A stretch of DNA of 35,593 nt from Syntrophobacter sp. SbD2 (GTDB lineage Bacteria; Desulfobacterota; Binatia; UBA9968), in NCBI GenBank assembly GCA_945889495.1, contig CAMDBU010000050.1:1-35593 (forward strand). The letters are read 5' to 3'. Numbering within the stretch: the stretch's first letter is position 1; every line of letters begins with the position of its first letter. A model generated the notes under the pieces. That model did not search any database. It saw nothing but the letters and a program-made list of their open reading frames with translations, and was not told the DNA's origin. This document shows positions 13,891 to 32,273 of the stretch, piece after piece. Made by a program: the position numbers and the translations under genes.

Positions 13891-15060
13891 CTACTTCTTC
13901 GCTTCGATCGCCGCCATGATCTCCTTGGCGAGATCGGCGATCGGTTTTTGATCGGCGTACTCCGGCCTGACCACGTCGAAATATTTGCCGTCCGGCACCA
14001 TGCGATTGGCCGGCGGGACATCGTCCTTGGGGATATCGATGCGCCGCGAGTTTGGCGGGTCGTCGACATCGCCGAGCTTTTGCAGCGCGATCTGGCCGCG
14101 CCGCGACAGGAACCAGTTGATGAACACCTTGGCGGCATTAGGATGGGGCGCCTGATTGGGCGAACTCAGCGAGCCGCCGCCGGAGGAAAAGCTCGCGCCT
14201 TCTTTCCACCGCCCCGAGTCGAAGTCTTCCACCGGCAAGCCCTGATTCTTGGCGCGCATGGAGTCCTTGCACCCGAAACAAATCGCATAGCGCCCCTGCG
14301 CCAGCCAGTCGGTCATCTGGCGAAAGTTCTTGGCGTACTGGATCTCCATGGTACTGAAAAATTTCTTGATGAACTCCGGCCCGAGCTCGGGATTGTAATA
14401 AAAGAACTGCATGGTGCCGCCCAGACCGCCGTCGCGCAGATCAAGCGCAACGATCTTGCCTTTCCACTTTGGCTGAAGCAGGTCCCAATAGGACTTGAAC
14501 TCCTTGGGATTCACCAGCGACGTATTGTAAGCCAGTTGCGCGTCGCTCGGACTGGCCAGATAGGCAAACACATACTTGCCCTCGCCATCGGCGTAGCGAT
14601 GCTCTCTGCCGTACCACTTGGACTCGTCGGTCACTTCGGGCAGGACGAACGTCGGTTTGATCGGATCGAGCGCTTTGCCTTTGTAGAGCACGTTGTAATT
14701 GCCGCCCGGACCGCCGCTGTAAACGTCGGGAATAAATCTACCGGCGCGCCGCTCCGACATGATCCGCGTCGTCAGCTCATTGCCCCGCCCGGTAACCGAC
14801 ACGACGTTGATGCCGGGAAACTCGCGCTTGAATTCCTGCAGCAAACGCTCGTAGCGGTAAATGTAGACCGTCACCTGCCCTTCCTTCTTGGCCGCGGCAA
14901 CCGTCTGCTCCCAATCGGTTTTCCAATCGAGCTGGGCGGCCGACAGCTGCGCAGCGATCGAAAAGAGGATCAGACCGATCAGACCCATCCGTCCGAACCG
15001 ACAGACAATCCCCAATGGCTGGCCTTGCCCTGGTTGACGCTCGTTAGGCATACAACCCAT
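13891..15060 (-). CDS. Secreted solute-binding protein, COG1840-like, CxxC subtype
   Basis: A 389-residue SBP, the closest relative of the next gene (12644-13789): same VTGRGNELT, CFGC, QGLPV, APHPNAAKVF and PPNSRRIDIPKDD blocks. The ATG at 15060 overlaps the 3' end of the NMT1-like gene (stop at 15044) by 17 bp, with gggg about 8 nt upstream, which suggests translational coupling; an ATG at 15051 is also possible. The resulting n-region is long (about 25 residues) before the hydrophobic core GLIGLILFSIAAQ and cleavage near LSAAQ. The overlap indicates that both are made from one mRNA. Confidence 0.87.
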   Translation of the reverse strand: MGCMPNERQPGQGQPLGIVCRFGRMGLIGLILFSIAAQLSAAQLDWKTDWEQTVAAAKKEGQVTVYIYRYERLLQEFKREFPGINVVSVTGRGNELTTRIMSERRAGRFIPDVYSGGPGGNYNVLYKGKALDPIKPTFVLPEVTDESKWYGREHRYADGEGKYVFAYLASPSDAQLAYNTSLVNPKEFKSYWDLLQPKWKGKIVALDLRDGGLGGTMQFFYYNPELGPEFIKKFFSTMEIQYAKNFRQMTDWLAQGRYAICFGCKDSMRAKNQGLPVEDFDSGRWKEGASFSSGGGSLSSPNQAPHPNAAKVFINWFLSRRGQIALQKLGDVDDPPNSRRIDIPKDDVPPANRMVPDGKYFDVVRPEYADQKPIADLAKEIMAAIEAKK

Positions 15061-15985
15061 CAATAAACCCCGAATGATCCAACGCCCGCAAATAATGCAA
15101 ATCCCACAGCGCCAGCGGCGACTGCTCTTCCGCCTCGGGATTCTTCATGCAGCAGAGTTTATAGGCATTGGCCACCGCTTCATGGTCGGGATAGGGCTTG
15201 GGCGCGAGCTTGGCGACGCTGCGGTACTGAACATTTTTGCATTCCGGCTCGCGCTTGCGCAGCCCTTCGAGGATCGCCTCGGTTTCGCCGCGCCGCGTGC
15301 GCGCGAAGTGGATGCCCATGATCTGCGCCTTAACCAGCCGCTCAGCCAAACCAGGCTTGCTTTCCAGGGTCGCAATGTTTGAAGTCAGCGTCGGCCCGTT
15401 GATCATCGGCAGCCGGTCGAGCGCCAGCGCATGCATGCCCGCCGCTTTGAACTTGTCGGTGTTGCCGGTGACGAAGATGGCGTCGACTTTTTTCGACTTG
15501 AGCACGTCCATCTGCATTTCCTTGAATGCGTTGTTCGACTCCGACAACTCCACCCACTCGACGTCGGTCAACTTCAAACCGCCGCGCATGACAAACAGCA
15601 TATGATTGCCGCGCGGGTGGTGATAACCGCCGATGGAGTCGACCAGCGTAGTGTCGCCAATGCGCTTACCGCGCAGGTCGGCCATGGACTCAATCGGAAA
15701 ATTAGTCACCAGCGTATCTCTGGTATCGTTCGACGGTGAAGTCAGGCAGACAATCGGCTTGCCACGCTTGACCAGCAAGTAGGGCGAGATGTGATTGCCC
15801 GAGACGAAATCGACATCGCCGCCGAACAACGCCTTCTCCGCCGCCTCCGAGCTATCGCAAAACTCGAAGCTAACCTTGAGCCCGTTCCGCTCCCAGATCC
15901 CCGCCTTATCCATCACCTCCCAAATCGGCAAGTGCGAATAAGCGCGGAAGAAACCGCGTATCTGCATTGCATTTTGCTCAGGCAT
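15044..15985 (-). CDS. NMT1/THI5-like PBP-fold protein without signal peptide
   Basis: A 313-residue type II periplasmic-binding-protein-like domain (NMT1/SsuA type). Typical elements are the early FRAYSHLPIWEVMDKAGIWE helix, a DVDFVSGNH strand, MADLRGKRIG and a KKVDAIFVTGN segment. The ATG at 15985 has aaggagaagtt in front and no hydrophobic leader, so the product should stay in the cytoplasm, like the Pht5-like protein at 7754. It could therefore be an enzyme rather than a transporter subunit, but I see no proven catalytic motif. It follows an SBP after a palindromic repeat and overlaps the next SBP. Function unassigned. Confidence 0.75.
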   Translation of the reverse strand: MPEQNAMQIRGFFRAYSHLPIWEVMDKAGIWERNGLKVSFEFCDSSEAAEKALFGGDVDFVSGNHISPYLLVKRGKPIVCLTSPSNDTRDTLVTNFPIESMADLRGKRIGDTTLVDSIGGYHHPRGNHMLFVMRGGLKLTDVEWVELSESNNAFKEMQMDVLKSKKVDAIFVTGNTDKFKAAGMHALALDRLPMINGPTLTSNIATLESKPGLAERLVKAQIMGIHFARTRRGETEAILEGLRKREPECKNVQYRSVAKLAPKPYPDHEAVANAYKLCCMKNPEAEEQSPLALWDLHYLRALDHSGFIDGLYA

Positions 15986-16011
15986 AACTTCTCCTTGAAT
16001 GCTTAAGATTA

Positions 16012-16100
16012 TTTTCTCGCAAAGGCGCAAAGACGCCAAGTTCAGAAGAAGATTTTTTTTCTTAAACCTTTGCGCCTTGGCGTCTTTGCGAGAGATATTC
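16012..16100. repeat. Palindromic repeat, gcaaagacgcaaag class, copy 4
   Basis: Left arm ttctcgcaaaggcgcaaaga; right arm gcgccttggcgtctttgcga, then gagatattccga. It lies between the SBP stop at 16130 and the NMT1-like start at 15985, with the same orientation as copies 1-3. Confidence 0.87.
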
Positions 16101-16129
16101 CGAATCCGAACTCTGATTTATTTCTCCAT

Positions 16130-17233
16130 CTACTTCAAAATCTCACCCAACAGCTTCTGCACCGGCTCGGGGTCGAGGAAACCGACAACCTCGTATTGCT
16201 TCCCAGCGCCGCGTTTACCGTCGGCCAACACTTCGTCCTTTGGAATATCGATGCGCATGGAATCCGAGGCTTCCACTTCTTTCACATTCATCACATGCTG
16301 CCAAACCATTTGTCCCTGGCGCGACAGATACCAATTGATAAATAGCTTGGCCGCGTTGGGATGGGGCGCGCGATTGATCAACGCGATGACGCTACTGCCA
16401 CCGCCACCGATGGTGCCGCCCTCCTTGAGCTTATCCGGCGGCAGATCGTCCACCGGCAAGCCCTGCTGCTGCGCCTTGTCGATCTCCCGGCATAAATGGC
16501 ACAGCGGAAACTTCCCGGTGGCCAGCCAATTGGTCCCCTGGCGCCGGTCGCGAAACAGCGTAATGTCGGTCTCGGTGTAAAACTTGCGCAGAAACTCCGG
16601 TCCCAAACCGGCGCGGTGATAGAGAATCAACACCGGCGTCGCCAGCGCCGCGCTGCGCGGGTCCTGCGCCAGGACTTTTCCCTTCCACTTGGGCTGGAGC
16701 AGATCCCAATAGGACTTGATCTCGTCGGGCTGCGCCAACTTGGTGTTGTACGAAATCCCGGTGGACACGATGGTGCCCTCGAACATGAAAATATATTTGT
16801 TCTCCGGATCGGCGTACCAAAGTTTGCCGCCATACCATTTAGCAGCATCGGTCACTTCAGGAAGAATGAAAGCCGGCGCGATCGGATCGAGCATCTTGTT
16901 GAGATAAAGCATGCGCGGCCCATTGGGCCCACTGGCGGTGATGTCGGCCAAATACTTCTCCGCCCGCCGCTCGGCGACAATGCGCGTCAGCATATCGGCA
17001 GCCCGCCCACTCGCCGACGTGACCTTGATGAAAGGGAATTCTTTGTTAAACGCCGCGATGATATCAGGGTGGGTGATCTCTTGCCCGCCGTAGAGCGACA
17101 GATGGCCTTCCTTCTTCGCCGCCTCAATCACCCGCTGCCAATCGGTTTGCCATTTGGGCGGCTCAGCCGTATGCGCGATTCCAGTGAATAGCAGCGCAAC
17201 CGCCACGCCCCATTTTAGTCCGCGGGGCCGCAT
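16130..17233 (-). CDS. Secreted solute-binding protein, COG1840-like, CxxC subtype
   Basis: A 367-residue SBP. From the ATG at 17233 the signal peptide reads MRPRGLKWG, a hydrophobic core, then cleavage near AHTAE. Blocks EAAKKEGHLS, QPKWKGKVL, APHPNAAKLF and SRQGQ are present, and CHLC precedes QGLPV. No clear Shine-Dalgarno lies before 17233 because the upstream 30 bp belong to an aatccaaaatcc repeat; an in-frame ATG at 17281 is the alternative. It follows the TrpX-type gene ending at 17341. Downstream is the signal-less NMT1-like gene. Ligand unknown. Confidence 0.86.
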   Translation of the reverse strand: MRPRGLKWGVAVALLFTGIAHTAEPPKWQTDWQRVIEAAKKEGHLSLYGGQEITHPDIIAAFNKEFPFIKVTSASGRAADMLTRIVAERRAEKYLADITASGPNGPRMLYLNKMLDPIAPAFILPEVTDAAKWYGGKLWYADPENKYIFMFEGTIVSTGISYNTKLAQPDEIKSYWDLLQPKWKGKVLAQDPRSAALATPVLILYHRAGLGPEFLRKFYTETDITLFRDRRQGTNWLATGKFPLCHLCREIDKAQQQGLPVDDLPPDKLKEGGTIGGGGSSVIALINRAPHPNAAKLFINWYLSRQGQMVWQHVMNVKEVEASDSMRIDIPKDEVLADGKRGAGKQYEVVGFLDPEPVQKLLGEILK

Positions 17234-17342
17234 TTGGATTTTGGATTTTAGATTGTCGGACAAACACCTCGGCAAATGCATAACATACCGGCTCCGCCCT
17301 CCGATTCCCCAATCCAAAATCCAAAATCGGCAATCCAAAATC
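17234..17342. repeat. Inverted aatccaaaatcc repeat
   Basis: ttggattttggattttagat at 17234-17253 faces aatccaaaatccaaaatcgg at 17311-17330, with a further aatccaaaatc running into the stop codon at 17341. The same short repeat occurs before 18360 and around 21357-21490. Confidence 0.8.
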
Positions 17343-18327
17343 ATCTGATGATCCTATCCGCTCGCGCCAACACGCTTGGCGGAACCGTCACGCCGAGCTG
17401 CTTCGCCGTTTTCAGATTAATGACGAGCTCGAATTTCATCGGTTGCTGCACCGGCAAGTCGGCAGGTTTGGTTCCTTTGAGTATCTTGTCGACGTAAGTG
17501 GCCGCGCGCCGGTATTGATCAAGGGTGTCTGCTCCGTAGGAAATGAGTCCGCCTGCCGCAGACCATAATGGTGAATCACCCATCGCTGGAATGCGATTTT
17601 TGACCGCAAGTTCCAAGAGTACAGGTCGATGAAAGCCAGTAAATTGTCCCGAAAAGATAATCAACGCCTGCGCCTGATTTTTTGTCATCGCCGCGAAAAC
17701 GCCTTGAAACTGCTCCGGTTCGAGTACATGCAAAGCTTGAATTTGCACCCCCAATTTCTTCGCGGCTGATTGAGTCTCTCTTAACTCCTCCTGATCTCCG
17801 CCAGGCCCGCCGTGATATAGAACCGCAACGCGAGAGATTTTAGGAAATGCTTCCCTTAAAAGTTGTAAACGCTTTGCGCTCAAATCCGGCTGGACGTTGG
17901 TAAATCCCGTAACGCTGCCGCCAGGTTGCGCTAAGCTAGCTACCAGGCCCTCGCCGACGAGATCGCCCGCAGCACCTACGACAATTGGAATAATATTGGT
18001 TGCTTGCTTAGCAGCGACAGTAGCTTGCGTACCCTGGGTTACTATGACATCCACATTGAGCTTAACGATCTCGGCTGCCATAGGAGCGTAGCGATCGTCT
18101 TTGCCTTCAGCCCAACGGTACTCGACTGAGATGTTTTGCCCCTCAACATAACCTAACTCCCGCAATCCTTGGCGTAATGCCTCAATATTAGTTGGCATTG
18201 GAGAAGGACGGGAGCCGGAGAGCAAACCAATCCGGGAAATTATTTTCGCCTGCTGCGCCTCGGCAAGATGAACCATAGCCAATAGAATGGACACAAGTAG
18301 TAGGGAAATGACGCTTCTCAATTTCAT
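17341..18327 (-). CDS. ABC-type substrate-binding protein, TrpX/COG2984 type
   Basis: A 328-residue secreted type I periplasmic-binding protein. The ATG at 18327 follows cggaggcgccca and starts a signal peptide (MKLRSVISLLL core, cleavage near AEAQQ). Family features include RIGLLSGSRPSP, FRQGLRELGYVEGQNI-like text near residue 55, an AAEIVKLNVDVIVTQG strand, VVGAAGDLVGEGLVASL and a GGDQEELRET segment. It is a tandem copy of 18360-19343, with nearly identical 3' ends. No permease or ATPase follows, contrary to usual TrpXYZ-like operons. Base composition is less GC-rich than that of the surrounding SBPs. Confidence 0.9.
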   Translation of the reverse strand: MKLRSVISLLLVSILLAMVHLAEAQQAKIISRIGLLSGSRPSPMPTNIEALRQGLRELGYVEGQNISVEYRWAEGKDDRYAPMAAEIVKLNVDVIVTQGTQATVAAKQATNIIPIVVGAAGDLVGEGLVASLAQPGGSVTGFTNVQPDLSAKRLQLLREAFPKISRVAVLYHGGPGGDQEELRETQSAAKKLGVQIQALHVLEPEQFQGVFAAMTKNQAQALIIFSGQFTGFHRPVLLELAVKNRIPAMGDSPLWSAAGGLISYGADTLDQYRRAATYVDKILKGTKPADLPVQQPMKFELVINLKTAKQLGVTVPPSVLARADRIIR

Positions 18328-18359
18328 TGGGCGCCTCCGACAAAATCGAAAATCCAATA

Positions 18360-19343
18360 TCATCTGATGATCCGATCCGCCCGCGCCAACACCTGCGGCG
18401 GAACCGTCACGCCGAGTTGCTTCGCCGTTTTCAGATTGATGACCAACTCAAACTTCATCGGTTGCTGCACGGGCAAGTCGGCAGGCTTGGTTCCCTTGAG
18501 TATCTTGTCGACGTAAGTGGCCGCGCGGCGCCATTGATCGCGCCGATCATGTCCGTAAGAGATGAGACCGCCGGCCTCAGACCACTCGAGATTACCACTG
18601 ATCGTTGGAATGCGAACTTTGGCCGCACGATCTAAGAGTTCTCGTCGATGAGGATTCGTAAAACTGCCGCTAAAGATAATCAGTGCCTGCGCGCGTTCCT
18701 TGGTCATCGTCGCGTACGCGCTCTGAAACTGGTCGGGTTCGAGAACATGCAACGGTTGAATCTGCACTCCCAATGTCTTTGCCGCTGTGTGAGTCTCCCT
18801 CAGTTCTTCCTGATCTCCACCCGGACCGCCATGGTAAATCACCGCCACGCGGGCGAGTTTGGGAAATATCTCTTTTAGAAGTTGCACCCGTTTTGCGCTT
18901 AAATCCGGGTCGATGTTAGTGAACCCGGTTACGTTTCCGCCCGGTCGCGCCAGGCTGGCAACTAGCCCCTCGCCGACAAGGTCGCCAGCGCCACCGACGA
19001 TAATAGGAATCGTGTTGGTTGCTTGCTTGGCGGCGACGGTGGCTGCCGTGCCCTGGGTTACAATGATATCCACAGCCAGACTGACGAGCTCGGCTGCGAA
19101 GATAGCGTAGCGCTCCTCTTTACCTTCGGTAAATCGGTACTCGAACAGGATGTTTTTCCCCTCAACATAACCTAACTCCCGCAATCCCTGGCGAAACACC
19201 TCAATAGTAGGTGGCATTGGTGAAGAGCGGTTGCTGGAGAGCAAACCGATCCGGAACATTTTCTTCGTCTGCTGCGCCGCGGCAGGAACGCTAAAAGCCA
19301 AGAGGATCGAGCAAAACGCTCGCCGAGTGATTGTTTTACTCAT
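18360..19343 (-). CDS. ABC-type substrate-binding protein, TrpX/COG2984 type (tandem copy)
   Basis: A 327-residue paralogue of 17341-18327. The ATG at 19343 follows gaagggaaaaccg. The leader MSKTITRRAFCSILLAF ends near PAAAQ; the paired arginines hint at Tat export, but the motif is weak. GLRELGYVEGKN, VVGGAGDLVGEG-like text and GGPGGDQEELRET match the copy. The last about 58 residues (RRAATYVDKILKG onward) are almost identical in both. It lies 72 bp after the toxin gene, so the toxin-antitoxin promoter may also drive it. Ligand unknown. Confidence 0.9.
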   Translation of the reverse strand: MSKTITRRAFCSILLAFSVPAAAQQTKKMFRIGLLSSNRSSPMPPTIEVFRQGLRELGYVEGKNILFEYRFTEGKEERYAIFAAELVSLAVDIIVTQGTAATVAAKQATNTIPIIVGGAGDLVGEGLVASLARPGGNVTGFTNIDPDLSAKRVQLLKEIFPKLARVAVIYHGGPGGDQEELRETHTAAKTLGVQIQPLHVLEPDQFQSAYATMTKERAQALIIFSGSFTNPHRRELLDRAAKVRIPTISGNLEWSEAGGLISYGHDRRDQWRRAATYVDKILKGTKPADLPVQQPMKFELVINLKTAKQLGVTVPPQVLARADRIIR

Positions 19344-19415: not shown

Positions 19416-19802
19416 TCACCACAGCCGACTGATTCCGTAGGGATCGAATCCGGGATCGGCACTGACTAGAGTTATGTTCTCCACTTGTGCCTGGGCTACC
19501 AATAGTCGGTCGAAGGGATCGCCGTGATGTCTGGGAAGGCTACCCTGAACTTCTGCGTATTCCACGGTGATAGGCAGAACGGTCAATGCCAAATCGGTTA
19601 TCGCTCGGTGCATCCACTCTCGATACAACATCGACAACGACAACTTGCCTAATCCAACTTTGATCGCAATCTCCCAGATTGTGCCCGCACTCAGAACCAA
19701 ATCGTTGCCGGGGTCTTGCAACGCCGTCGTCGCTTGAAGGCCAAGTTTTGAAGGATCATCCACCGCCCAGATGACAGCGTGAGCATCGACAAGCAGCCTC
19801 AC
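19416..19802 (-). CDS. PIN-domain toxin (VapC-like) of a type II toxin-antitoxin pair
   Basis: A 128-residue PIN-domain protein, in this family a Mg-dependent RNase. The conserved acidic residues are visible: D6 in LLVDAHAVIW, E44 in GTIWEIAIK, D98 in HHGDPFDRLL and D116 in LVSADPGFD. Length and spacing are normal, so it looks intact. Its ATG overlaps the antitoxin stop by 4 bp, the usual coupling of such pairs. It sits in the lower-GC segment with the TrpX pair. Target unknown. Confidence 0.93.
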   Translation of the reverse strand: MRLLVDAHAVIWAVDDPSKLGLQATTALQDPGNDLVLSAGTIWEIAIKVGLGKLSLSMLYREWMHRAITDLALTVLPITVEYAEVQGSLPRHHGDPFDRLLVAQAQVENITLVSADPGFDPYGISRLW

Positions 19803-27875: not shown

Positions 27876-27900
27876 AATTGTCAATTCTCCATTCTCAATT
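27876..27900. repeat. AT-rich repeat after Rieske stop
   Basis: tgtcaattctccattctcaa followed by ttaat touches the TAA stop of the Rieske gene at 27899, as in the other members of this class. Confidence 0.65.
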
Positions 27901-29077
27901 AATTATTCGCCGCTTTCGGCGGCAAAATATGCGCGAAGCCGCCCGCCTTGCCGACCTTGATCGATTCCTCCAAATGGGTATCGATGATCGGCCCGTTGGG
28001 ATCGCGAAAGACATTGATCGGGTCCAACCCCTGCTCGACCTTTTTGATCTCGCGGACGAGCATTTCGCGGTACAGGACGATGCCGCGGTCCGAGGTGCCG
28101 AGCCGCTCGCGGGTGCGATCATGAACTGGCCCCTGAGTCTCCCACGCCATGAAGTCCTGGGCATCGACCTCATCGAGGCGATGCCTGGCGAAGGGATGAC
28201 TCTGATCGGGCGGATTTTTGAACGGCTTGCGATAATTGACCGGCACCTCACCGTCGGCCGGCCGCGGCCCGGCGGAGTCGGGAACAAAGTGAACGTAGAC
28301 AACATAGGTATGGGTGTCGTCGATCGGCACGCGGATCTGCGTGCGATTGGCTTGGCGCAGCCAGGTGGGAAACAATAACGGATGTTCCTCGACCTTGCCG
28401 TCGCCGAATACCCGCCGTTTGACGATGCCGTATTCGCACTCTTCGGTCTCATATTTTACTAAATTGTCGATGGTGCCGCGGGTGGTGCTGGTGATTTTGA
28501 AGCCGTCGGTGACCAACTCCTGGTGGAGAATATGCAGGTGCGTCGTATCCACCGAGTTCTCCATCGCTTGCAACCAATTGCAATCGAGCTGCGGCAAGGC
28601 GCGCAGCCAATGCCAGCCATCCGTGCGCGCCCAGACATCCCACTTGGGTATTTCCGGCGCCGGCAGCGGCCCCATGTAGGCCCAGTACAGGCCGGCGAGC
28701 TTTTGCACCGGATAGGCTTTCTGTTTCACCGTGAGACAGAAGTTGCTCTCCTTGGGCTCCGCCGGGGTTTCCAGACAATTGCCCTGCACGTCGTAGAGCC
28801 AACCATGGTAGGCACAAGCCAAACCGCGCTCCTCGACTCGCCCATAGGACAACGACACGCCACGATGGGAACAACGGTCATGGAGCAGACCGACCTCGCC
28901 CTTGGTCGAGCGGAACAACACCAGATCCTCGCCCAGTCGGCGCAGAAACATGGTCGGCTTTTCCGGCGTCAGATCCGCGGCGATGGCGATCGGATGCCAG
29001 TAGCGGCGCAGCAATTCCCCCGCCGGCGTGCCCGGCCCGACCTGAGTCATCATGTCATTCTCTTCAGCAGTCAACAT
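27899..29077 (-). CDS. Rieske non-heme iron oxygenase, Pht3-like alpha subunit
   Basis: A 392-residue oxygenase. Rieske ligands are C69, H71, C88 and H91, and the catalytic motif MENSVDTTHLHILH gives D177, H180 and H185. The C-terminal DRTRERLGTSDRGIVLYR block is the Pht3-type signature. The ATG at 29077 follows ttggaggatacgca. It is closest to 11342-12508 (same MLT-EEN start and ligand numbering). It sits between two SBPs, the first of which carries the amber codon. Substrate unknown; needs a reductase encoded elsewhere. Confidence 0.93.
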   Translation of the reverse strand: MLTAEENDMMTQVGPGTPAGELLRRYWHPIAIAADLTPEKPTMFLRRLGEDLVLFRSTKGEVGLLHDRCSHRGVSLSYGRVEERGLACAYHGWLYDVQGNCLETPAEPKESNFCLTVKQKAYPVQKLAGLYWAYMGPLPAPEIPKWDVWARTDGWHWLRALPQLDCNWLQAMENSVDTTHLHILHQELVTDGFKITSTTRGTIDNLVKYETEECEYGIVKRRVFGDGKVEEHPLLFPTWLRQANRTQIRVPIDDTHTYVVYVHFVPDSAGPRPADGEVPVNYRKPFKNPPDQSHPFARHRLDEVDAQDFMAWETQGPVHDRTRERLGTSDRGIVLYREMLVREIKKVEQGLDPINVFRDPNGPIIDTHLEESIKVGKAGGFAHILPPKAANN

Positions 29078-29156: not shown

Positions 29157-29303
29157 CTACTTTCGTCCAGCCAACGCCTCGTCGATCAACTTGATCGCCG
29201 GATTGATATCCTTGGTCTCGGGATCGTCGATGTCGAAGTATTTCATGCCGTCGCGGCGCCGCTCGGCGGCCGGGATATGATCCTTATTGACATCAATACG
29301 CCG
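29157..29303 (-). other. Intact in-frame C-terminal extension behind an amber codon
   Basis: Directly after the TAG at 29304-29306 the same frame continues for 48 sense codons (RRIDVNKDHIPAAERR and onward to DEALAGRK) to a second TAG at 29157. This matches the SRRIDIPKDD-to-C-terminus region of the paralogues, for example 12644-13789. The amber stands where the paralogues have Ser in NSRRID; TCG to TAG is one base change. No other stop or frameshift is seen. Confidence 0.9.
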
Positions 29304-30284
29304 CTAGTTCTTGGGGTCGCCGGGGGTGCTCATGGTTTTTTGCAACAAAGTCTGCCCCTCGCGCGATAGAAACCAATTGATAAACACCTTGGCGGCGTTG
29401 GGATGGGGCGCGCGATTGACTAACGCCAACTGACCGTAGGCCGACGAGATGTTCACGCCCTCTTTGAAATGATGGGTCTCGAACTCGTCCACCGGCAAGC
29501 CTTGGGCTTTCGCCTTGGCCGTTCCCGAACTCTGCATCGGCAGCAGCGCCGCGACTTTCCCCGCCGCCAGCCAATCCATCGCCTGGCGAAAGTCACCGCT
29601 CATGGCGACGTCCATCTCCTGGTAAAAGCGCCGGAGAAATTCCGGGCCAATATCGGGGTGATAGTACATGTATTGGATCGTCGGTCCGACGCCGCGCAGT
29701 TTGCGAATATCGATGGACCCGACCTTGCCTTTTAGTTTGGGATTGAGAAAGTCCCAGTAGGAGCGGAAATCCTTCGGATTGATCAGCTGGGTATTATACG
29801 CCGGCGAGCCGCCCGACGAGACATTGCCCTCGTAGACAAACATGTAAGTCGCTTCTTTATCGACATACTTGTGCCGGCCTTCCCACCATTTGGAAGTATC
29901 GGTGACCTCCGGCAGCATGAGCGCCGGCCGCAGCGGATCGAGCATCTTGCCCAGATACAGCACCTGGTACAGCGACGTCCCGCCGCCGCTATATACATCG
30001 GCGAGAAATTTTTCCGCGCGCCGCTCGGCGACGATGCGCGGCGCCAGCTGGGTGCCGATGCCCGGCACCAGGGTCACTTTGATCTTCGGAAAGGCCTTTT
30101 GAAACAGCCCGGCTTCAACCACCGCGGCGTAACCGGAGATGTAAATCGTCAGCTGCCCTTCGGTCTCGGCCGCTTTGACGGTGCGTTCCCAATCCACTTG
30201 CCAGGCCAGCTTGGACTCGGCGGCGTGCACGGAACCGATGAAGCAGCAAAGCAGAAACGCGATAAGTCTTGCCAGATATTTCAT
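29304..30284 (-). CDS. Secreted solute-binding protein, COG1840-like, truncated by an amber codon
   Basis: As it stands this encodes 326 residues; with readthrough it would be about 375, the usual length here. The ATG at 30284 starts MKYLARLIAFLLCCF, a signal peptide cleaved near VHAAES; the Shine-Dalgarno is weak. Blocks KAAETEGQLTIYISGY, NPKLKGKVG (W to L compared with paralogues), QGLPVDEF, APHPNAAKVF and LSREGQ are present; CxxC is absent. The protein ends GDPKN at a TAG, and the rest of the C-terminal domain lies intact behind it. It may be a recent pseudogene, a readthrough gene or a sequencing error. It heads the SBP/Rieske series, 218 bp after the Pht4-type gene. Confidence 0.85.
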   Translation of the reverse strand: MKYLARLIAFLLCCFIGSVHAAESKLAWQVDWERTVKAAETEGQLTIYISGYAAVVEAGLFQKAFPKIKVTLVPGIGTQLAPRIVAERRAEKFLADVYSGGGTSLYQVLYLGKMLDPLRPALMLPEVTDTSKWWEGRHKYVDKEATYMFVYEGNVSSGGSPAYNTQLINPKDFRSYWDFLNPKLKGKVGSIDIRKLRGVGPTIQYMYYHPDIGPEFLRRFYQEMDVAMSGDFRQAMDWLAAGKVAALLPMQSSGTAKAKAQGLPVDEFETHHFKEGVNISSAYGQLALVNRAPHPNAAKVFINWFLSREGQTLLQKTMSTPGDPKN

Positions 30285-30502: not shown

Positions 30503-31690
30503 CTATTCCGGACTAGCCACCTGATGCGACAGCATGATCTCTTTGCGCTGCTTGGCCGACTCCAACATCGCCAAGCATACCTCTAATGTCGCCGCGCCCC
30601 AGCGGCCGCCGTGAAACACCGGTCGGCCGTTGACCACGGCGTCGTACAACTCTTCCACTTCGGCTTCGCGCCCACGGCTACCCGCCGGCAGATTAATTTC
30701 CCGCTGCTCGGTCTCGCCGTAGATCTTCAAGCCGTCCGGCGTCTGGCGGATGTCGCCCTTCTGGCAGCTAACCACGGTGTGGCCGAAGAACGGCTGTTTG
30801 CGCTCGCCTGACCAGACATGGCTGTACTCGCCCTCGCGTTTGCCGCCGAAGCGCATGCCTTCTTTCAGCTGCTCTTCCTCCTCGGCGCTGCGCACCTCAC
30901 GCAAACTCTTTCGTACATTCAAATTAGTCTCCGGCGCGCGGTGCTGGCCGCCCTCGCCGACCCAGCTGAATAATTCCGCGGTGTCGAAGAAACCGTAGCC
31001 GCTATAAACCAGCGTCGCCGGCGTGCCGTCCTCGAATTCGAGAAAGCAGGTGTAGCTGCCTTCCCACTCCCGCGCCGGGTCCCAGACGCCGGTCATGGCG
31101 CGCACGCTACGCACCAGGCCGCCGCCAATCAAACGCACGATGTCGACATGGTGCGGTCCTTGATTGAGCACCACGCCGCGAGTCATGGCGAGCTCATGCT
31201 TCATGCGCGGCCGGTACATGAACTCGTTGTAGTTCCAGCTGTTGATCATACACAGCTTGCCCAACTCGCCGGACTTGACAATTTCGCGCATCTTGCGGAT
31301 CGGCGGATCGAAGCTATGGGTATGGCCGCAGAGTAATTTAACGCCGTACTTGTCCGCCGCTTCGTTCATGGCGTCGCACTCGGCCAAGTTCATCGCCATG
31401 GGCTTTTCGACGATGATATGTTTTTTATTTTTCGCCGCGATGATCGCGTGCTCGGCGTGGAGCGAGTTGGGCGTGGCGATGTAGACCGCGTCGATGTTGG
31501 GGCTGGCGCAAAGTTCTTCGACACTGTTGAAACCTTCGCCCCGGTACTGCTCGCGAAACTTGGCCACCGCGTCGGCGCGCATGTCGGCGGCGGCGGTGAT
31601 TTTGATAAACGGCAGTTTGGCGATGGGCGGCATGATCTGCGTACTCGCCACGCCCAGCCCGGCCATGCCTAGTCGTAAAACCTCACTCAC
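30503..31690 (-). CDS. Gfo/Idh/MocA-family oxidoreductase, Pht4-type dihydrodiol dehydrogenase-like
   Basis: A 395-residue NAD(P)-dependent dehydrogenase. The Rossmann GLGVAS motif is near residue 13 and VEKPMAMNL carries the EKP triplet; the PFFGHTVVSCQKGDIRQ block and the terminal LSHQVASPE match the paralogue at 273-1442 and, from memory, Pht4. The start is the GTG at 31690: tgaggagaaatcc lies immediately upstream, and the gap to pcaG is 10 bp; longer in-frame starts would run into pcaG. Cotranscription with pcaHG supports an aromatic role, probably oxidation of a cis-dihydrodiol toward the PcaGH substrate. Exact substrate unknown. Confidence 0.87.
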   Translation of the reverse strand: MSEVLRLGMAGLGVASTQIMPPIAKLPFIKITAAADMRADAVAKFREQYRGEGFNSVEELCASPNIDAVYIATPNSLHAEHAIIAAKNKKHIIVEKPMAMNLAECDAMNEAADKYGVKLLCGHTHSFDPPIRKMREIVKSGELGKLCMINSWNYNEFMYRPRMKHELAMTRGVVLNQGPHHVDIVRLIGGGLVRSVRAMTGVWDPAREWEGSYTCFLEFEDGTPATLVYSGYGFFDTAELFSWVGEGGQHRAPETNLNVRKSLREVRSAEEEEQLKEGMRFGGKREGEYSHVWSGERKQPFFGHTVVSCQKGDIRQTPDGLKIYGETEQREINLPAGSRGREAEVEELYDAVVNGRPVFHGGRWGAATLEVCLAMLESAKQRKEIMLSHQVASPE

Positions 31691-31700
31691 GGATTTCTCC

Positions 31701-32273
31701 TCACATGTCGAAGAACACCGTCTCGCCACCGCCCTGCAAGCGAATGTCGAAACGGTAGACAATTTTTCCATCGCGCTCGCCGCGCTGGGCGAGCAGAGTT
31801 TTGCGCCGCGCCTTGTTCTTGACCGAATTTAACACCGCGTCGTCGCCGTTGGCCGGCTCATCGGCGAAATAAATCCGCGTGAAAGCGTGCACCAGCATGC
31901 CACGGGCGAAAATCACCACGTTGATATGCGGCGCTTGCACCGCGCCGTCGTTGCCCGGCACCGGGCCGGGTTTGATGGTTTCGAAGCGGTAAAAACATTT
32001 CGCATCGGTGCCCGAACGGCCCCAGCCGGTGAAGCTTTTATCGAGCGGCTTTTCCTGCTTGTCGTCCGGATGATTGTAGCGGCCGTAGCCGTTGGCCTGC
32101 CAGATCTCCACCATGACGTCCGGTATCGGCACGCCGTCGCCGTCGAGGACTTGTCCTTCGATGCAGATGCGCTCGCCTTGGGTCGATGCGCTGGCCATCA
32201 AGTTCATCGGTTGGCGGGTCATGCCGATGGAGTAAAACGGACCGACGGTTTGCGATGGAGTTTCCTTGCTCAT
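31701..32273 (-). CDS. pcaG: Protocatechuate 3,4-dioxygenase alpha subunit
   Basis: A 190-residue intradiol dioxygenase subunit. It has the TPSQTVGPFYSIG start typical of PcaG, the VEIWQANGYGRYNHP block and a C-terminal FDIRLQGGGETVFFDM tail. In the PcaGH complex the alpha chain is structural and the beta chain holds the iron; here the alpha chain lacks the HIH pair (APHINVV). Its ATG at 32273 overlaps the pcaH stop by 4 bp. It opens the aromatic ring of protocatechuate between the hydroxyl-bearing carbons to 3-carboxy-cis,cis-muconate. Confidence 0.95.
   Translation of the reverse strand: MSKETPSQTVGPFYSIGMTRQPMNLMASASTQGERICIEGQVLDGDGVPIPDVMVEIWQANGYGRYNHPDDKQEKPLDKSFTGWGRSGTDAKCFYRFETIKPGPVPGNDGAVQAPHINVVIFARGMLVHAFTRIYFADEPANGDDAVLNSVKNKARRKTLLAQRGERDGKIVYRFDIRLQGGGETVFFDM

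Follow-up and report, generated by a model that had tools for sequence, protein, structure and literature searches.

The locus considered here runs from position 30284 down to 29157 on the minus strand of the window, which is the whole 35,593-nucleotide stretch of DNA analysed, and holds a substrate-binding protein (SBP) gene interrupted by a stop codon. Read from its ATG at 30284, the frame has 326 residues (29307-30284, minus strand), begins with a hydrophobic N-terminal leader, and ends at the codon before an in-frame TAG (29304-29306), where relatives have a serine codon. On the same strand, 48 further sense codons (29160-29303) are homologous to the C-terminus of relatives, including the RRID motif and a terminal helix recognized by alignment and structure modelling, and a second TAG (29157-29159) follows where relatives end. 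An earlier reading made from the sequence only had described this arrangement and claimed that no other decay is present; translation and alignment bear it out on both counts, with neither a second internal stop nor a frameshift detected in the frame. The Pfam profiles SBP_bac_1, SBP_bac_8, and SBP_bac_11 score above their cut-offs in the first part of the gene, and phnS2 is the sole NCBIfam match, at 28.3 bits against a cut-off of 392.75 bits. The open stretch of 48 codons goes beyond chance because it is homologous to the C-terminus of relatives; length alone proves nothing, and post-stop open stretches among the 29 tabulated ORFs of the window reach 454 codons. Scans for promoters, terminators, and repeats gave no result relevant to the TAG, and this gene is not named in the publications found by a limited literature search.

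Profile scans identify both neighbours, which are also on the minus strand: a Rieske oxygenase gene with a LigXa-type C-terminus lies downstream (27899-29077) and a Gfo/Idh/MocA oxidoreductase gene lies upstream (30503-31771). Congeneric, syntenic orthologues are present in two genomes, G001 and G002. With the TAG read as an amino acid, the frame aligns to them at 86-87% identity nearly end to end (86% for G001 and 87% for G002), and both orthologues, whose comparison the sequence-only reading had called for, are intact and carry a serine codon at the site. A single nucleotide separates the TAG from their codon, as expected from the claim that the break needs one base change. The Rieske gene lies 3' of the orthologue in G001 and G002 (83% and 88% identical, respectively), and the oxidoreductase gene precedes the orthologue in G001 (93% identical) and was not found near that of G002 in a stretch with about 1500 bases on each side.

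The full frame was used to search 58 genomes, its own included, with no more than 34 candidates scored in each; the 66 matches listed at E<=1e-100 fall in 13 genomes, and the sole internal stop among them is this TAG. Serine occupies the site in 20 of 20 other sequences of a 21-row alignment, and all five other sequences of a codon comparison have a serine codon there. For 34 loci from named genomes, mostly titled Deltaproteobacteria MAGs, all but the last 12 (L127-L138) were read to a stop or to the contig end, and none of these 22 stops at the TAG site. A 31-row alignment (A2) combines 20 loci with 11 proteins of the window; L115, which runs off its contig, and L118, which is partly masked, were left out. 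L118, a close relative of this SBP family (49% identity), is on a 5.3-kb contig titled Elusimicrobia, a possible case of mis-binning or gene transfer.

Within its own genome the SBP has many paralogues: 136 of the 150 candidates scored match it at E<=0.001, a family that is very large relative to the ATPases, for which there are 72 ABC_tran matches. Eleven related SBP genes, ten of them intact and the other the gene considered here, lie on the minus strand of the one 35.6-kb contig (window positions 2963-30284), among genes for Rieske/LigXa-type oxygenases, UbiD, cupins, and protocatechuate dioxygenase-like proteins. ABC permease and ATPase families were found in none of the 23 window proteins scanned, and none of the 72 ABC_tran matches of the genome is on this contig; judged by gene content, the array apparently lacks a transporter of its own and may possibly serve aromatic compounds. 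SBP-like genes of other families lie near the array (15044-19343), one NMT1/THI5-like and two adjacent ABC_sub_bind (PF04392), and a PIN-domain protein (19416-19802) adjoins the ABC_sub_bind pair, as in toxin-antitoxin modules.

The best 30 of the 136 matches, this gene among them, were read to their stop codons. All of the other 29 carry a full C-terminus, which extends 49 to 65 residues beyond the matched stretch, compared with 0 for this SBP. The paralogues had been said to have the serine of an NSRRID motif at the site of the TAG; the serine is confirmed, but exact NSRRID is confined to closer relatives, and what the 29 others share is the wider motif S-x-R-x-D. The stop codons of the 30 are evenly divided among TAG (10, this SBP included), TGA (10), and TAA (10), and inspection by eye of up to 30 residues behind each of the nine other TAGs showed nothing family-like. 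Relative to orthologues and paralogues alike, the stop considered here is in frame and premature, as in a nonsense pseudogene.

Constraint on the two parts of the frame was estimated as dN and dS from pairwise counts over 298 codons before the stop (the first 30 alignment columns omitted) and 47 codons after it; the figures are rough, as synonymous distances are large and partly saturated in the extension, and one value was not computable. On the gene's own branch dN is 0.020 before the stop and 0.048 after it, and on the intact branches the corresponding values are 0.036 and 0.060 for G001 and 0.031 and 0.086 for G002. The extension is the faster-changing part in general and has not sped up on its own branch relative to the intact congeners. 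With an own-branch dS of about 0.46, a neutral extension would have approximately 38 nonsynonymous changes; the neutral share of the own branch, estimated against the upstream part, is 0.06 (500 bootstraps, -0.04 to 0.21). No relaxation of constraint is visible after the TAG, and a very young lesion would show none anyway. An unaccelerated extension is compatible with a stop of very recent origin, with an error, and with translation that continues past the TAG, and does not tell these apart.

The contribution of the extension to the protein can be judged from a structure model built on the read-through frame (mean pLDDT 91.6). The best fold match is MctA 7f6r (Z 26.4, 315 residues aligned, rmsd 3.9), Foldseek and the sequence profile concur on the SBP class, and fold and family profile together place the modelled read-through frame among the FbpA/MctA-like SBPs. 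The two-lobed fold of these periplasmic proteins (7f6r, 7li0, and 1mrp) is common over most of the model, and 7f6 and related chains are also matched by sequence profile; the identity is about 20%, and the gene as encoded, unlike these proteins, ends before the C-terminal part. Truncation had been predicted to remove C-terminal helices held to close the binding fold, a role that is putative. In the model one terminal helix (361-372) would indeed be lost, but not helices in the plural, since the rest of the part after residue 326 consists of bridge residues 327 and 329, a strand pair (350-351), and short turns. Alignments to solved SBPs reach model residue 371-375 in 50 of 50 rows listed, as given by their first and last residue ranges; across 31 aligned homologues Arg329 and Asp331 never vary, and conservation at Ser327 is 90% or higher. 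As modelled, the lost segment is part of the FbpA/MctA-like SBP fold.

A truncated SBP of 326 residues could still be functional, the short C-terminus being tolerated or altering specificity, and, as this would lead one to expect, the part upstream of the TAG is an undamaged frame under constraint (own-branch dN 0.020 against dS 0.46). Set against the invariance of Arg329 and Asp331, the reach of every listed solved-SBP alignment to model residue 371 or beyond, and the fact that none of the other best 30 paralogues ends at the TAG site, such a functional short form is very unlikely. The function of the short form is likely lost.

A constrained extension is also expected under continued translation, and programmed or leaky readthrough of the UAG, yielding both a short and a full-length SBP, would account for constraint on the gene's own branch. 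The base after the TAG is C. Passages of one paper report that C at position +4 raises readthrough in yeast and U at +4 lowers it in E. coli and yeast, that the leakiness of UAG is intermediate between those of UGA and UAA, and that tRNA-Gln is able to misread UAG in E. coli (PMC5289835); from these passages, some background leak is expected at UAG. The TAG is nevertheless missing from both orthologues, which have serine codons, and is thus not a conserved stop; in four other paralogues (L002, L006, L024, and L026) a TAG with CG behind it serves as the normal terminator; and folding of the 84 nt downstream of the stop does not exceed that of shuffled sequences (z -0.70, with 49 of 200 shuffles folding equally well). 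A young stop, moreover, accounts for the constraint without readthrough, which is highly improbable at this site. More improbable still is that the UAG is a species-specific readthrough switch, with the extension under full purifying selection and short and full-length SBP made in this species only. Were readthrough demonstrated, the existence of an SBP with two different C-termini would be unusual.

Decoding of TAG throughout the genome, by amber suppression or reassignment, had also been raised. Bacteria in which TAG encodes an amino acid, through pyrrolysine or amber suppressors, have in-frame TAGs with homology on both sides, as here. Unlike in those bacteria, TAG is in ordinary use as a terminator in this genome, ending 7 of the 29 tabulated window ORFs as well as 10 of the 30 paralogues. 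A suppressor tRNA, which the sequence-only reading had proposed to seek, was not found: the CTA anticodon is in none of 42 tRNA matches, all of them typed, in a set that lacks Tyr GTA, Ile GAT, and Ala TGC and so is not complete. The usual tRNA gene order is Thr-Tyr-Gly-Thr; contig C101 starts with Thr(TGT), Gly(TCC) is close to the end of C9, and a break between contigs may hide the Tyr tRNA. PylS has no match in the gene's own genome and exceeds the cut-off in none of 23 genomes and in one of 14 controls. The search for recoded TAGs elsewhere was likewise negative, with no internal stop in the matched stretches of 135 other SBP, 72 ABC_tran, and 43 luciferase-family matches, a count that stops near the end would escape, and no second gene of this kind was seen. 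These results speak against genome-wide suppression or reassignment.

Reassignment of TAG owing to an absent RF1 was considered and rejected, since RF2 is missing from the bin as well, there is a contig gap, and murA is not found above its cut-off. In the genome search for RF1, TIGR00019 gave one 61-bit match, below its cut-off, and PF00472 gave one match, in a 157-codon frame that is similar to short matches ranking second or third in relatives; three relatives (G004, G014, and G034) also show only one short RF-1 match. RF2 was also not found in the bin. The gene at C5 in G001 is prfB, and on either side of it the matching stretches break off near contig edges that face the gap, 307 bases short of the end of C82 (26634 bases) and 295 bases into C89; a shorter DNA query for the prfB region gave just four small matches. 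By this contig arrangement, RF2 would fall in the gap between C82 and C89. In G001 prfA is grouped with prmC, murA, and hisD, and the 5.5-kb prfA stretch of G001 has no DNA match in this genome, an empty answer that, without a positive control, shows nothing by itself. The only match for murA is one of 80 bits, below the cut-off; weak second matches of 56 to 85 bits occur in G001, G002, G003, and G025, each of which also has a strong one of 575-591 bits. RF1 is probably missing from the bin together with neighbours such as murA. RF1, RF2, and MurA are essential, and since TAG regularly serves as a terminator, the cell most likely does possess RF1. Release factors absent from a 95.6%-complete draft bin could be mistaken for a change of code.

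An error of sequencing, consensus, or strain mixing in the draft assembly, with the gene intact in the organism, ranks second among the explanations and is possible, if on balance doubtful. The genome is a draft of 239 contigs with an estimated completeness of 95.6% and contamination of 2.7%, the lesion is a single base with no other beside it, the extension is without excess divergence, and every relative read is intact at the TAG site. The lack of any other internal stop in the aligned stretches of the 135 SBP, 72 ABC_tran, and 43 luciferase-family matches suggests instead that such errors are infrequent in this assembly, but the same scarcity holds for real nonsense mutations. Because there is no independent sign of decay, a consensus error fits the sequence equally well.

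The explanation judged probable is that one base of a periplasmic SBP gene, a member of a large family and intact in all other respects, recently mutated to give a nonsense codon. The stop, the intact homologous remainder, the intact syntenic orthologues, the ordinary use of TAG, and the lack of a suppressor among the tRNAs found are all observed. Four options had been offered at the outset: the recent pseudogene and the error of assembly or sequence both fit all observations, genome-wide suppression is not supported, and site-specific readthrough is without positive support. Under a nonsense mutation, translation would end at the TAG, giving a 326-residue product that lacks the last 49 positions (among them Ser327, Arg329, Asp331, and the terminal helix) and that probably misfolds or has no activity. 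On this reading the population sampled would carry a pseudogene of very recent origin or a null allele, a loss made tolerable by the many related SBPs in the genome; presumably the base is real, function is lost, and paralogues compensate.

Pseudogenes are common in bacteria; one review gives 90 of 4711 genes as pseudogenes in one record of Salmonella Typhimurium LT2 (PMC11078800). Young bacterial pseudogenes with one nonsense codon have a single in-frame stop, a frame intact otherwise, intact orthologues and paralogues, and no special decoding parts found, as here; the SBP gene differs in that its inactivity, and the base itself as assembled, are putative. The sequence feature is real, and its kind is ordinary: one SBP copy carries either a nonsense allele of recent origin or an error of the consensus. 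It also counsels caution, in that a lone in-frame TAG before a pristine extension resembles recoding, yet either of these two causes produces the same picture.
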